From assembly GCF_028736035.1 (NCBI RefSeq), contig NZ_CP117866.1, forward strand, positions 992,001-1,056,000: DNA of 64,000 nucleotides. The letters are read 5' to 3'. This DNA is from Streptomyces sp. T12 (GTDB taxonomy: Bacteria; Actinomycetota; Actinomycetes; Streptomycetales; Streptomycetaceae). Under the pieces are notes generated by a model that saw nothing but the letters and a program-made list of their open reading frames with translations, searched no databases and was not told where the DNA came from. Each line of letters opens with the position of its first letter. Position 1 is the stretch's first letter. Below, piece by piece: positions 58,342 to 64,000 of the stretch. Both the position numbers and the translations under genes were made by a program.

Positions 58342-59037
58342 ATGAGCGGTCTCAGCGGCATCTCGGTCATCTTCGATCTCGACGGGACGCTCGTGGACAG
58401 CGAGCCCAACTACTACGAGGCGGGCCGGCAGCTCCTCGCCGAGCACGGGGTTCCCGACTTCACATGGGCGGATCACGAACGGTACGTCGGCATCAGCACG
58501 TTCGAGACGGTCACGCTCTGGAAGCGGGAGTACGGCCTGCGGGCCTCCGTCGACGAGTTGCTCGCCGCCAAGAACCGCCGCTATCTGGAACTCGCCCGCA
58601 CCGCCACGCGCGCGTACCCCGAGATGCGCGCGTTCGTGGAGCTGCTGGCGACCGAGGGGGTCCCCATGGCCGTGGCGTCCGGTTCGTCGCACCGGGCCAT
58701 CACGGCGATCCTCGCCGGCACGGGCCTGGACGCCCATCTGCGCACCGTCGTCTCGGCCGACGAGGTCGAGCGCGGCAAGCCCGCCCCCGACGTCTTCCTG
58801 GAGGCAGCCCGCCGGCTCGGCGCGGCACCGGGCGACTGCGTGGTCCTGGAGGACGCGGCCCCCGGCGCCGCCGCCGCGCACGCGGCCGGGATGCGCTGCA
58901 TCGCGATCCCGTACGTGGCCGCGCAGGCGGACGCCCCGGAGTTCGTGACCGCCGGCCTGCTACTGCGGGGCGGCCAGAGGGAGTTCACGGCGCGGGGAGC
59001 GTATGACTGGCTCCTACGCTCCAACTGGACCAACTAG
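58342..59037 (+). CDS. HAD-superfamily phosphatase, beta-phosphoglucomutase-like
   Basis: This 231-residue HAD hydrolase has motif I FDLDGTLVDSE with the nucleophile Asp, a cap domain insertion, motif II ASGSSH, motif III lysine in ERGKPAPDVF, and motif IV LEDAAPG. It is the single-cap C1 type acting on sugar or small phosphates. It starts 19 bases after the Lrp gene stop. The last codons and the stop lie inside a nine-base tandem repeat, so the C-terminus may be variable between strains. Confidence 0.88.
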   Translation: MSGLSGISVIFDLDGTLVDSEPNYYEAGRQLLAEHGVPDFTWADHERYVGISTFETVTLWKREYGLRASVDELLAAKNRRYLELARTATRAYPEMRAFVELLATEGVPMAVASGSSHRAITAILAGTGLDAHLRTVVSADEVERGKPAPDVFLEAARRLGAAPGDCVVLEDAAPGAAAAHAAGMRCIAIPYVAAQADAPEFVTAGLLLRGGQREFTARGAYDWLLRSNWTN

Positions 59038-59074: not shown

Positions 59075-59270
59075 CTTCCGATTAGCACCTTTTGCGACGC
59101 CAGGCATCCAATGGGAGGATTGAGACTGGTACGCGCTCCCGCACGAGCCGTTCCACAGGCACTCGCGAACACCGCGAGGTCCGTCACCTCCTTGCCGACA
59201 CCCATGCTCGGCGCGCGTGGCCGGCTGCCGTGACGCATGCGTCCCGAGCTCCACCATCCCGGAGGGACCG

Positions 59271-60731
59271 ATGGCTGCTGCGAAGACGCCCAGTTACGAG
59301 CAGAACGTTCCGGACACCGTGTACGGCTATGTGGCCGCGCGGTCGCAGGGCGGGGTACCGATGACCCAGGCGAGGCGCTTCGAGTCGGCCGCGCCGTTCC
59401 GGGCCGAGGAGCGCGTCCGGGAACGGGCGAAGGAGTACGCCCGCCAGGCCGGCCTGACGGTGACCGCCGAGAGCCGCCTGGGATTCGCCGTGGCCGGCTC
59501 GCCGGCGGCGTACGAACAGCTGACCACCGGCAGGATCGCCAGTTACGAAGTGCGCCAGCGGGTCGAGATGAGCCGAGAGCGCTCCGTGACGCACCTGGAC
59601 ATCATCGGCGACCGTCAGCCCCGAGCCCTCGGCATCGGCGCCGCGCCCGGTGAGGACACCATCGAGGCGGTCGCGCTGGAGGAGCCGCGCGTGCCCATGC
59701 GGCTGCACCCGGCGACCGCCGATCCGCCACTGGTCGCGGACTTCCATCTCACCCTTCCCGACGACGTGGCCCGCCTGCTCAACGCCACGCCCGCACACCA
59801 GCAGGGGCGCGTGGGGCGGGGCGTGAAGGTCGCCATGGTGGATACGGGACAGGCTCCGCACGCGTACTTCACCGAGCACGACTACGACGTGGCCCGGACC
59901 TTGGCGGTCGTACCGGGGACCGATGCGGCGGAGGATCCCGTCGGGCACGGCACGGGTGAGTCGGCGAACATCTTCGCCGTGGCGCCCGGCGTACGCCTGC
60001 GTCCGTACCGGGCGAGCAACCAGGAAGGCGTTCTCATTGCCGCCATGGGAGGTTTCCTGCGCGCGAAGGCGCGACAGCCGCAGGTCCTGACGAACTCCTG
60101 GGGCACGCCGACCCGCTTCCCCGAGGACGGGCCACTGCCTGAGCTCGACCGGCTGTGGGCGCTGGAGATCCGGGACGCGTTGGAGGAGGGCATCGTCGTC
60201 GTCTTCGCCGCGGGCAACGGCCACTTCTCGATCGAGCCGCAGGTTCCCGGAGTGCTGTCGGTCGGCGGGGTGTTCTCCGGTCCGCAGGGCGAGCTGCGGG
60301 CGTCGGACTACACGAGCGGTTACGCCAGCCCCTGGTTCGACGGCGTCGTCGTCCCCACGGTTTCCGGACTGGTCGGCCTGGCGCCCCTGGCCCAGTACCT
60401 CATGCTCCCGATTCCGCCCGGCTGCACGATCGACGTCGAGGAGAGCGATGCGGACGACGGGACGTCACCCCACGACGGCTGGGCGCTGTTCTCGGGCTCG
60501 TCGGCGGCGGCACCGCAGATCGCGGGGGCGGCGGCACTGCTCCTGGAGGCCCGCCCCGGGCTCACGCCCGACGAGGTCACCGACGCCCTCGCCAGAACCG
60601 CCACCGACGTCACCACCGGCAAGAACGCCTTCGACATCCCGGCCCGCCGCGGCCCTGACGAGGCCACCGGGGCGGGGCTGGTGAACGTGAGCGCGGCGCT
60701 GGACTTCGTCCTCACGCACCACAACCCGTAA
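59271..60731 (+). CDS. intracellular subtilisin-like (S8) peptidase next to an HSP90-like ATPase
   Basis: The 486-residue protein has no signal peptide. Residues 1-175 form a pro-region-like domain, followed by the S8 domain with the triad Asp191 (AMVDTGQ), His226 (GHGTGES) and Ser411 (SGSSAAAP), and the AAGN oxyanion asparagine. The region of about 70 residues between the AAGN motif and the Ser motif includes an acidic loop (DVEESDADDG). GGAGGG lies before ATG 59271. The next gene, an HSP90-type GHKL ATPase, starts 70 bases downstream, so the two are probably an operon and the protease is the likely effector or processor of that ATPase. Confidence 0.85.
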   Translation: MAAAKTPSYEQNVPDTVYGYVAARSQGGVPMTQARRFESAAPFRAEERVRERAKEYARQAGLTVTAESRLGFAVAGSPAAYEQLTTGRIASYEVRQRVEMSRERSVTHLDIIGDRQPRALGIGAAPGEDTIEAVALEEPRVPMRLHPATADPPLVADFHLTLPDDVARLLNATPAHQQGRVGRGVKVAMVDTGQAPHAYFTEHDYDVARTLAVVPGTDAAEDPVGHGTGESANIFAVAPGVRLRPYRASNQEGVLIAAMGGFLRAKARQPQVLTNSWGTPTRFPEDGPLPELDRLWALEIRDALEEGIVVVFAAGNGHFSIEPQVPGVLSVGGVFSGPQGELRASDYTSGYASPWFDGVVVPTVSGLVGLAPLAQYLMLPIPPGCTIDVEESDADDGTSPHDGWALFSGSSAAAPQIAGAAALLLEARPGLTPDEVTDALARTATDVTTGKNAFDIPARRGPDEATGAGLVNVSAALDFVLTHHNP

Positions 60732-60800
60732 CGCCGAAACCGGCCACGCCCGGGCGTCGCTCCTCTAGATTCTGGGGAAGTGCCTGAAGGGAGCGGCAGG

Positions 60801-63800
60801 TTGACGGAGGGCGGCACCCGTAACGTCGTGGGCGGCAACACCGTGGCGAAAGCCGTCGTCCAGGCCCAGTCGATCGGTGAAGTTCACTTTCATACGGCTG
60901 CTGCGTCGTCGGAGGCCGAACCCGTCGCGTCGGACCCCTGGGTGCGCAAGGCCCTCGAGTCCTGCGTCTGGCAGCACGTGCCGGCCGGCCGCGACACCGG
61001 CCACCACCGCCGGTATGTCGCGGCCGTGGCGTTCCGACTGGCCGGCATGCGGGACGAGTGGGAGGGGTCGCTGGAGCAGGATCCCTGGTGCGACTCACGG
61101 ATCGCGACCGCGTTCCTGGACAACGTCGACTGGCTGCTCGGCGAGCCACCCCAAGGCCAGGCACAGGGCCAGGCACAGGGCCAGATCCAGGGCCAGATCC
61201 AGGGCCGACCCCGATCGGACAGCCTGGACCTCTATCCGGCCGAGGCGGCCCTCCTCGTCCTGTTCCCCCTCCTCCACCGGGTCCATTACCTGCGGCGGGC
61301 GGTACGGCTCGCGGAGGTCCGCCCCTGGTCCCTGCAGCCCGACCCGGGCGCCGGGCCCCGCAGGGAGGCGTACGAGCTCTTCGCGGAGGAGAGTGACGCG
61401 CTCGTCCAGCGTGCCCTGCGGGACCCGGAGGCCGAACCGCTCGTCGGCTGGTGGCTCTACCACCGCAGGCTGGCCCAGCACGAGGAGTTCTCGGAGGCCG
61501 ACTCGGTCCCCGCCCTGCTGGCCGAACTGGGCGAGCCCGCAGCCGAGTTGGGCGGCGCGCTGGCCGCCGACCGGGTGACGGTCCTGCTGCACGCGCTGCG
61601 CCGGGGACCCGATGTGTGCCATCCGGAGTTCCTGAATCTGCTGCCCGCCGACGACCGCGTCCGCTGCGGCCCCGGTCATCAGCAGATCCGCTTCCAGCGT
61701 GCCGCCCTCCTGCTGGCCCTGGCGTACGGCATGTCCGTCGAGATGACGGCGTTGCCCGACATCGTCGCCGAGCACCTCGCCATCCCCTACCCGGTGGACC
61801 TCGCCGAGCTGCGCCGCACCCTCACGGCGGCGGAGTGGGGAGGCTCGCGCGAACTTCCCGTACTGCGCGCGCAGTGCCGTCACGAAGCGGTCGTCGAGGG
61901 CTTGCGGGAGTACACGGCGCGGGCCGACGCCCTGCTGCACGCGGTACGGCGCACCACCCGCGAACGCGTCAACGAGCCCATGCCGGACCTCCCCACCCGG
62001 CTGTCCGCCGACGGCGTGCTGCCGAGCCGCGGCGCCTTCGACGGGTATGCGAGGTTCCGCAGCGACGGGCGCCGGGTCCTCGATCTGGCGATGGGGATCG
62101 AGCTGTACAAGGACCGTGACCTGGCCGTCCGGGAGCTGTACCAGAACGCGCTCGACGCCTGCCGCTACCGGCGCGCGCGGCAGGAGTACCTCGACCGCAC
62201 GACGGGCTCCTCCGGCGCGGCGTACACCGGCAGCATCTCGTTCGTCCAGGACACCGACGAAAAGGGCCGGCCGTATCTGGACTGCCAGGACGACGGCATC
62301 GGCATGGGCGAGGCCGAACTTCGCGGTGTCTTCTCCCACGCGGGGGCACGCTTCGCGGAACAGCTGGAGTTCAAGCTGGAGCGGGCCCGGTGGGAGGCGC
62401 TGGATCCGCCGGTCGAGCTGTACCCGAACAGCCGGTTCGGGATCGGTGTGCTCAGCTACTTCATGCTCGCCGAGGAGATCCGGGTCACGACGTGCCGTAT
62501 GGACGCCGACGGTGTCCCCGGGCCCGTGTACGAGGTGTCCATCTGCGGTCCGGGGCACCTCTTCCGCATCGTGCAGACCAGAGCGCGGGGGCGCGAACCG
62601 GGTACCCGCGTCCGGCTGTATCTGCGTTCCGACGTCGCACCGGAGAGCTGGTCCGTGATCGACGTCCTGGAACGGGTGCTCGCCATCGCGGAGTTCCCGA
62701 CGACCGCGCGGAAAGGTGCTCTGAGCAGCGACTGGGAGCCCGGGCGGCTCAAGGAGCGGGAGCGGCCCGACCGGGCCGACACCGGACTGCACGCGTACGG
62801 GGAGCAGTTGGCCTGGGCCGAGGATCCCCGGGGCGCGCAGGTCGTCTGGTGCGAGCACGGCGGTGCGCTGCTGGTCGACGGCGTGGTCGTCGAGCCGACG
62901 GTGCGCAAGGGGGTCTTCTCGGCGACGGGTCTCGGGCTGACCGGGGCGGTGGTGAACCTGCGTGGTCCGTCCGCCCCTGCCATGCTGTCGGTGGACCGCA
63001 GGCATGTGCTGGACGATGTGACCGCCGCGGTGCGGGAGCTGCTGGAGAAGGCGACCGATGTTCTGGCGGAGGGCGACGAGGGGCTGCCGGACTTCTGGTG
63101 GCTGAATCGAGTGGCCGTGGACAGCGCGGCGCTCGCGGACGTCGTGGACCGGGCACTCTTCTCGCGCGGCCGGGAACTCACCTTCAAGGGGGTGGAGTTC
63201 GGCGGTCCGCAGACCGGCTACTTCCCGGGGGACTTCACTCTCGTCCCGAGGGAGCCCAGCGAAGAGAGCGCGTACGGTGGTGGCCCGTGGGCTCACGTGG
63301 ACGGGGACGCACCGGACCACGTGTACGTGTGGCGGCTCCTCGCCCGCCGTCCCGCACGCGCCCTTCGGAAGCTGTCGGAAGTGTGTCCGGAGATCGACGA
63401 CCACCGCCCAGTGCTCCGGCCGACTCCCTCCGACCAGTGGCTGCTCCTGCACGACCAGCAGAGCACCGACTCACCGAGGTGGCGCCGGGGGGCCCGCGAC
63501 CTGAGCGGCATCGCGCAATCCGCCGACACAGTCCAGTGCACGCCGCGCGACGTGGCCGCCCGGTTGGCCGCGCTGGGCTTTTCGGACACCGATCCCCGCA
63601 AATGGTCGCCCGGAGCGCAGCTCACCACGGCGAACAGCCACGCCTTCAGGACGCAGTACGGCGAGAGCCTCGTCCGGGAGAAGCCGCTCGACTCCGCCGA
63701 CCTCATGCAAGCGGTGGCCCGCATCAACGACACGGTCGCCGCGACGGCCGAACTTCTGCGGGACTTCGGGGCCGACGTACCGGAGAAAGTGGTGGCCCTG

Positions 63801-64000
63801 TGTCAGGCCGCGGAGAAGGACGAACTGCTCTGGCAAAAGCCGGGGAAGCCTGCCCGCGGCTGCCTGGATCCTGACGTCGTGGTGCCACCGGGGCACATCG
63901 CGGACGCGAGCATCCGGCTCGCCATACCCGTACCCGAGGTCTGCCGGCGGCTCGCGGCCCACGGGCTGCGCAGCGACCCCGGTCGGCTGCCGGACCACCC
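60801..64000 (+). CDS. HSP90-like (GHKL) ATPase of a putative conflict system, 3' end outside the window
   Basis: The frame is open from 60801 to the window edge (1066 residues visible). TTG at 60801 has GAAGGGAG seven bases upstream. The N-terminus reads TRNVVGGNTVAKAVVQAQSI, then GEVHFH, a Gly/Val/His pattern typical of actinobacterial conflict-system adaptors. A GQAQ/GQIQ repeat (residues 119-134) forms a hinge. The GHKL fold shows the N box with Glu445, Asn449 and Asp452, the G1 box DDGIGM (497-502), and the G2 box FGIGVLS near 546, as in HSP90 and MORC. Near 914 and 1043 are two winged-helix-like stretches (DVAARLAALGF, VPEVCRRLAAHGL). Together with the protease it may form an NTP-driven defence module. 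Confidence 0.78.
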   Translation, partial: MTEGGTRNVVGGNTVAKAVVQAQSIGEVHFHTAAASSEAEPVASDPWVRKALESCVWQHVPAGRDTGHHRRYVAAVAFRLAGMRDEWEGSLEQDPWCDSRIATAFLDNVDWLLGEPPQGQAQGQAQGQIQGQIQGRPRSDSLDLYPAEAALLVLFPLLHRVHYLRRAVRLAEVRPWSLQPDPGAGPRREAYELFAEESDALVQRALRDPEAEPLVGWWLYHRRLAQHEEFSEADSVPALLAELGEPAAELGGALAADRVTVLLHALRRGPDVCHPEFLNLLPADDRVRCGPGHQQIRFQRAALLLALAYGMSVEMTALPDIVAEHLAIPYPVDLAELRRTLTAAEWGGSRELPVLRAQCRHEAVVEGLREYTARADALLHAVRRTTRERVNEPMPDLPTRLSADGVLPSRGAFDGYARFRSDGRRVLDLAMGIELYKDRDLAVRELYQNALDACRYRRARQEYLDRTTGSSGAAYTGSISFVQDTDEKGRPYLDCQDDGIGMGEAELRGVFSHAGARFAEQLEFKLERARWEALDPPVELYPNSRFGIGVLSYFMLAEEIRVTTCRMDADGVPGPVYEVSICGPGHLFRIVQTRARGREPGTRVRLYLRSDVAPESWSVIDVLERVLAIAEFPTTARKGALSSDWEPGRLKERERPDRADTGLHAYGEQLAWAEDPRGAQVVWCEHGGALLVDGVVVEPTVRKGVFSATGLGLTGAVVNLRGPSAPAMLSVDRRHVLDDVTAAVRELLEKATDVLAEGDEGLPDFWWLNRVAVDSAALADVVDRALFSRGRELTFKGVEFGGPQTGYFPGDFTLVPREPSEESAYGGGPWAHVDGDAPDHVYVWRLLARRPARALRKLSEVCPEIDDHRPVLRPTPSDQWLLLHDQQSTDSPRWRRGARDLSGIAQSADTVQCTPRDVAARLAALGFSDTDPRKWSPGAQLTTANSHAFRTQYGESLVREKPLDSADLMQAVARINDTVAATAELLRDFGADVPEKVVALCQAAEKDELLWQKPGKPARGCLDPDVVVPPGHIADASIRLAIPVPEVCRRLAAHGLRSDPGRLPDH
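61155..61202. repeat. 12-base tandem repeat encoding GQAQ/GQIQ
   Basis: Two copies of GGCCAGGCACAG are followed by two of GGCCAGATCCAG, in frame with the HSP90-like gene. The encoded Gly/Gln linker separates the N-terminal helical part from the rest. The copy number is likely to vary. Confidence 0.85.

Follow-up and report, generated by a model that had tools for sequence, protein, structure and literature searches.

HSP90-based conflict modules containing iHD-CE or HD-CE domains were reportedly described by Nicastro, Burroughs, Iyer and Aravind in NAR in 2023, where they are said to be proposed as STAND analogues, and bacterial amyloid signalosomes, made of a Bell protein and an NLR, were reportedly presented by Dyrka et al. 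in JMB in 2020. In the portions available of four papers on the signalosomes (PMC7889193, PMC8086366, PMC12261475, PMC7885112), bacterial amyloid immune signaling is described with NLR-type receptors, the Bell effector and the NLR sharing a BASS motif; according to one of them (PMC7889193), a small helical Bell protein bears this motif C-terminally and the NLR encoded by the adjacent gene bears it N-terminally. The locus discussed here lies at the end of a 64,000-nucleotide stretch of Streptomyces sp. T12 (the window; positions 992,001-1,056,000, forward strand, of contig NZ_CP117866.1, assembly GCF_028736035.1, a genome labeled G000 below), and its central gene encodes an HSP90-type ATPase that begins with a short amyloid-signaling-type motif. 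The reading we favor, and consider probable, is that this ATPase serves as the immune receptor of a bacterial amyloid signalosome, in the position otherwise filled by an NLR, and signals in trans to Bell-type effectors. HSP90-based conflict modules and amyloid signalosomes are both known kinds of system; the combination of the two is the new part, and a literature search found no paper evidently joining HSP90 with bacterial amyloid signaling, which counts as weak evidence. The gene and its parts are as follows.

60780..64000, continuing beyond the window to a stop at window-equivalent position 64790, plus strand: HSP90-type ATPase gene, 1336 amino acids
60822..60893 (residues 15-38), plus strand: N-terminal amyloid-signaling-type motif, 15 residues ahead of iHD-CE; profile E-value 1.2e-9
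60939..62024 (residues 54-415), plus strand: iHD-CE domain, PF24401, 310.2 bits for the whole protein (307.4 for the window part), cutoff 27
62052..62639 (residues 425-620), plus strand: HSP90-type GHKL ATPase domain, NCBIfam match; N, G1, G2 and GT boxes intact
62640..63179 (to residue 800), plus strand: HSP90 middle-domain-like region, from the structure model
63864..63965 (residues 1029-1062), plus strand: wHTH-HSP90_Na-associated repeat, PF24410

The first-pass annotation of the window had seen here a very large GHKL protein with a full HSP90-like ATP site, winged-helix-like repeats and an N-terminal adaptor signature, and had expected the sequence past position 64000 to complete it, as it does. 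The nucleotide-binding boxes are intact, and the repeats are matched by PF24410 at 103.2 bits against a cutoff of 23, in three stretches of the whole protein, the best of which (residues 1074-1127) lies past the window end. The profiles likewise agree with its view that the gene encodes an adaptor-tagged ATPase of the HSP90 type, similar to those of conflict systems: they find iHD-CE, HSP90 and wHTH behind the motif. The order along the chain is motif, iHD-CE, HSP90 N-terminal and middle domains, and wHTH repeats. Like the HtpG/HSP90 chaperones, the protein has the fold of an N-terminal ATPase followed by a middle domain; unlike them, it carries iHD-CE in front and wHTH repeats behind, and its 1073 residues inside the window fall far below the curated NCBIfam cutoffs for housekeeping HtpG/HSP90 (54.6 of 455 and 41.6 of 371 bits), which speaks against the housekeeping alternative that the same annotation had raised. 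Topoisomerase subunits apart, MORC and other GHKL families are absent among the matches listed, which come from searches not dedicated to those families. Against the defense models of PADLOC-DB 2.0.0, the complete protein gives no match at E 0.1, nor do its residues inside the window at E 1. A GQ-rich in-frame repeat (QGQAQGQAQGQIQGQIQG) at about 61150-61208 of the window is absent from the relative in genome G123 (76%), and the confidence of the structure model is low there.

What stands at the N-terminus was surveyed across the family. The search for relatives of the ATPase took the best 80 of 277; 108 loci entered the survey, of which four lacked an anchor open reading frame (L057, L093, L095, L105) and ten duplicated a genome locus already present; the window's own genome contributes three of the remaining 94. 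The N-termini of these 94 fall into motif (32, at least 12 bits), helical (28), weak motif (17 by eye, with fainter or different motif-like stretches), caspase (16, set by hand to match the Pfam count) and trypsin (1) classes; Pfam finds caspase in 16, HTH_31 in seven and trypsin in one. The fused caspase or trypsin of these cousins precedes the same iHD-CE-HSP90-wHTH body and occupies the position held by the motif in the window's clade, which comprises 39 members with support of 100 in a tree made with FastTree only. Within this clade the motif reaches 12 bits in 27 of the 39 members, versus none of 1950 shuffles, and in all 27 it lies 12-21 residues before iHD-CE. The pattern N-x-[VIF]-x-G-G...[VI]-Q-A-G-x-[IV] is common to the N-termini of close relatives, its N and Q alone being invariant over 21 aligned sequences. 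Identity with BASS3 was considered and not adopted; the one published BASS3 peptide compared is not clearly the same motif, and for this reason the motif is named just amyloid-signaling-type.

The cousins hold a caspase or trypsin where the window's clade holds a motif of the Bell/NLR kind. Read most simply, the body would be the receptor and its N-terminal part the output, which would be a peptidase in cis in some members of the family and amyloid-type recruitment of effectors in trans in others. Like the HSP90/iHD-CE conflict modules, the window ATPase combines iHD-CE, an HSP90-type ATPase and wHTH repeats and has cousins with fused caspase or trypsin; unlike them, it bears no peptidase or effector in cis, and an amyloid-signaling-type motif stands in that position. 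Other amyloid-like stretches occur at the place of the motif in the ATPases at L133:7902, L124:7977, L073/L074 and L132/L146, one example being INIQVGN in L133, which we take to be close to the RHIM-type I-Q-V-G core. It looks as if motif families had been exchanged among the ATPases at this N-terminal place.

The ATPase is mostly a solo gene: among the 25 largest neighbor clusters of the 94 loci, built on genes from a simple open reading frame picker, there is no conserved neighbor that covers most of the motif clade, and the widest cluster reaches 10 loci. Together with the strong conservation of iHD-CE and wHTH, this would suit an ATPase that by itself, as a conflict protein, senses DNA or nucleotides through these two domains, the motif only aiding oligomerization. 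However, iHD-CE is, going by its Pfam name, presumably an inactive version of the effector domain HD-CE, no catalytic effector domain is found by Pfam in the whole protein, and cousins carry peptidases at the N-terminal position; we regard this explanation as quite improbable.

Some local neighbors recur at particular loci. A gene that looks like an HD hydrolase lies directly downstream, on the same strand, of the helical or HTH-type ATPases at six Actinomadura loci (L108, L110, L111, L120, L127, L131), and a conserved small gene lies directly upstream of the caspase-type ATPases at L056, L058, L059, L061 and L148. Directly upstream of a motif ATPase of S. anulatus JCM 4721 there is a gene that by look is HtpG-like (L047:7478-9394).

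The proteins that share the motif in the window's own genome look like those of an amyloid signalosome. When this genome was searched with a profile made from 21 ATPase N-terminal stretches only (150 of 334 first-look candidates were scored), the ATPase came first at the E-value given above, and two small Bell-like proteins came next, both matched at the C-terminus: L189:4999-5391 (E 6.8e-6) and L188:3138-3617 (E 1.9e-5). Directly after the latter comes a gene for an NB-ARC-TPR protein of 845 amino acids; the first possible start of this gene lies 4 nucleotides inside the Bell gene, and the pair with its shared motif (L188:3138-6151, that is, G000:C1:503138-506151) has the layout of an amyloid signalosome. 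Furthermore, a protein of 840 amino acids (L190:5458-7980) joins a Bell-like start, the motif (E 0.24), NB-ARC and TPR in one chain. The resemblance to the published signalosomes lies in the short motif shared by a receptor N-terminus and a Bell C-terminus, and in the Bell/NLR pairs found in the window's genome (L188) and beside a relative (L077); the difference is that the window receptor is an HSP90 ATPase with no NB-ARC or NACHT, and that the effector is unlinked rather than adjacent or overlapping.

In other genomes the motif ATPase and further motif proteins tend to occur together. A second, non-HSP90 motif protein (E at most 0.01) is found in 10 of 14 genomes with a motif ATPase versus 2 of 15 ATPase-negative genomes (Fisher p 0.0025), in a comparison where the 14 were chosen as positives, the 15 are the start of the list taken without design, kinship is uncontrolled, and two of the 10 positives (G153 and G157) owe their status to the same Bell genes that enter the flank count below. 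Among 15 motif loci besides the known ATPases (11 further rows lie outside this count), eight resemble Bell and carry the motif close to their C-terminus (the two-frame copy at L089 is included here); the rest are three NB-ARC/AAA proteins, one Bell-motif-TPR protein, one motif-TPR protein with a weak TPR match, one second ATPase and one protein (L224) without a Pfam match. With a Bell protein as query, matches are obtained in 43 of 150 genomes of the genus.

In a few relatives the genes are close together. S. olivochromogenes DSM 40451 (L077:1144-11894) has two Bell plus NB-ARC-TPR pairs upstream of a motif ATPase, all within 11 kb; downstream of the motif ATPase of Streptomyces sp. NRRL F-6492 lies a gene for an NB-ARC-TPR protein in which the motif is weak (L076:13188-15284, E 0.24); and the ATPase of Streptomyces sp. 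NRRL S-244 (L089) is directly preceded by a Bell-like stretch that ends in the motif but is split over two frames and thus probably broken. Open reading frames that by look are transposase-like lie between the Bell/NLR pairs and the ATPase at L077, and also downstream. In the eight genomes compared, the similarity of the ATPase and Bell motifs within a genome exceeds that of permuted pairs (p 0.014 for the best pair, 0.040 for the mean).

Several observations weigh against a receptor that signals to Bell proteins. A Bell-type gene occurs in the flanks (about 8 kb or less) of only 2 of the 39 clade loci (L077 and L089), where 0.025-0.14 would be expected by chance on the rough assumption of 0.36-2 Bell genes per 9 Mb genome, and none adjoins the window's ATPase, the nearest found being about 549 kb away. 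The motif stays under 12 bits in 12 of the 39 clade members, the N-terminal motif of the L188 NB-ARC-TPR protein is weak by itself (E 3.2), and the Bell motifs of the own genome are of a somewhat different flavor (QARDI and QGRDF, compared with QAQSI in the ATPase). Among the 14 positive genomes, G123, G152 and G159 have the ATPase motif alone, and G151 has only a second iHD-CE ATPase besides. Leaving out G153 and G157 raises the p-values of the similarity test to 0.024 for the best pair and 0.071 for the mean. Lastly, the Bell call itself is based on size, a hydrophobic N-terminus, a C-terminal motif and an NLR neighbor, and no Pfam model matches these proteins.

The presence of the motif on NB-ARC/AAA proteins as well, and in at least two ATPases of one genome (G014, G150), would also agree with a β-rich adaptor that pairs with effectors in a non-amyloid manner, or that recruits another ATPase, an NLR or a peptidase instead of Bell. 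The arrangement of the motif at the Bell C-terminus and the NLR N-terminus argues against this explanation, as it matches that of the reported amyloid signalosomes in the part of PMC7889193 available, and we judge the adaptor unlikely, albeit the most serious of the competitors.

HSP90 clamps in general close on ATP. A fuller version of the receptor reading, for which we see the chances as evenly balanced, is that a chaperone ATPase has become an innate immune receptor in the NLR's stead, that closure of its clamp nucleates amyloid and activates Bell effectors in trans, and that in evolution the N-terminal slot has swapped fused peptidases and amyloid motifs. The course of events from sensing to cell death, including fibers, ATP gating, killing and defense, is what we infer from domains and analogy. 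The iHD-CE, HSP90 ATPase clamp and wHTH repeats behind the motif would probably be the sensor or the ligand platform with which the ATPase senses an invader; ATP-driven closure or oligomerization would then gather several N-terminal motifs, which may form an amyloid-like seed. Following the published Bell/NLR model, this seed would template the corresponding motif at the C-terminus of Bell-like proteins whose genes lie elsewhere in the genome, and these, as in the published Bell model, would attack the membrane, with the death of the infected cell as the outcome. Should an HSP90 clamp do the job of an NLR, the modularity of amyloid signalosomes on the receptor side would reach further than STAND NTPases, and a fold of chaperones, which normally oppose aggregation, would start a functional aggregate. 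A direct test is possible, given that the motif is defined, that the same genome holds two candidate effectors and that the cluster in S. olivochromogenes DSM 40451 is compact.

Three further features lie upstream of the ATPase.

58342..59037, plus strand: HAD-type hydrolase gene, HAD_2 106.8 bits; left edge of the variable insertion site
59150..59230, plus strand: remnant of a small gene, its last 27 codons, 67% identical to the gene before the subtilase of G063; tblastn E 4e-6
59271..60731, plus strand: subtilase (S8) gene, triad D191/H226/S411 intact; a separable neighbor outside the proposed mechanism

The subtilase gene is real and its triad complete, as first annotated, and it was thought to form with the ATPase one NTP-gated protease module. 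The two genes do lie on the same strand, 48 nucleotides apart, the fused caspase and trypsin make proteolysis a real theme of the family, and a distant relative from Rhodococcus rhodnii has an S8 gene (L147:12117-14468, Pfam 85.4 bits) 0.3 kb downstream of its ATPase. However, the latter gene is on the opposite strand and its product has no blastp match to the window subtilase at E 1. Local S8 profile matches about 6 kb from the ATPase at L112 and L113 are on the opposite strand too, and none of the three was counted as operonic; a same-strand adjacent S8 peptidase is present at one of the 94 distinct loci, the window's own (for 74 of the 94, the flanks span 3 kb or more on either side). Homologs of the two genes are neighbors in no other genome examined. 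Among 150 genomes of the genus, the own one included, the ATPase query is matched in 27 and the subtilase query in six (E at most 1e-30); the nearest ATPase outside the own genome is that of G123, a genome without a subtilase match, and the nearest subtilase that of G063 (82%), a genome without an ATPase match.

The copies of the window, G123 and G063 all lie at one site, flanked on one side by the HAD-type hydrolase gene and on the other by a gene for a GH127-type glycosidase that has a Tat-like start. Block alignment assigns window positions 59148-60722 to a subtilase block and those from 60733 onward to an ATPase block. Both flanking genes are neighbors on one contig in 14 of the 150 genomes, and eight of these sites hold only 122-204 bp between them (empty by gap length; G001, G007 and G067 were compared by sequence); the other six measure 5.9 (G000), 2.1 (G063), 4.2 (G123), 4.5 (G121), 4.5 (G139) and 0.6 kb (G022), those of G121 and G139 carrying other genes. 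The genome closest by its HAD gene, G097 (94.7% DNA identity), has decaying ATPase remnants directly after this gene with no subtilase between, the flanks being on different contigs. In G063, a gene of 101 amino acids directly precedes the subtilase, and the window keeps a match to its last 27 codons alone. At L039:9688-11482, this small gene before the subtilase resembles one beside another subtilase (L040), and with the subtilase it is possibly a separate two-gene module of the protease/inhibitor kind.

Because the two genes occur independently in relatives at the same site, the pair is not a conserved unit, and the subtilase as effector of the ATPase was rejected on the neighborhood data and this allele series; a joint protease module appears very improbable. 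The subtilase is probably a chance neighbor, a separate gene in a shared insertion site, and the case teaches that two adjacent genes in an insertion hotspot can pass for an operon. The general expectation that adaptor-tagged NTPases are paired with proteases or other effectors survives in the relatives with fused peptidases (caspase in 16 and trypsin in one of 94), and fails for the subtilase, from which the tag points away, toward Bell and NLR proteins. The VMAP/MoxR-type NTP-dependent conflict systems (Kaur et al. 2020, PMC7159879) are akin in the conflict theme of multicellular prokaryotes and in their peptidases, S8 included in one system; they differ in that the terms GHKL, RHIM, amyloid and HD domain are not found in the available part of that paper. 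Against PADLOC-DB 2.0.0 the subtilase gives a weak generic subtilase match (E 3.6e-6). In G049, equally scoring copies of the subtilase sit close to the two ends of the chromosome (C1:73290-74744 and 10602394-10603848), on opposite strands, as expected of terminal inverted repeats.

Plasmid and phage records say little about carriage of the ATPase on mobile elements: at E at most 1e-20, two plasmid records match it partially, one over 26% and one over 34% of its length, and three phage records match 12-15% of it. On one plasmid, pSCO1 (L239, NC_022001.1), a gene related to the ATPase through an HSP90-type domain (50.6% over 26%) lies a few kb from fxsT and trypco2 genes.
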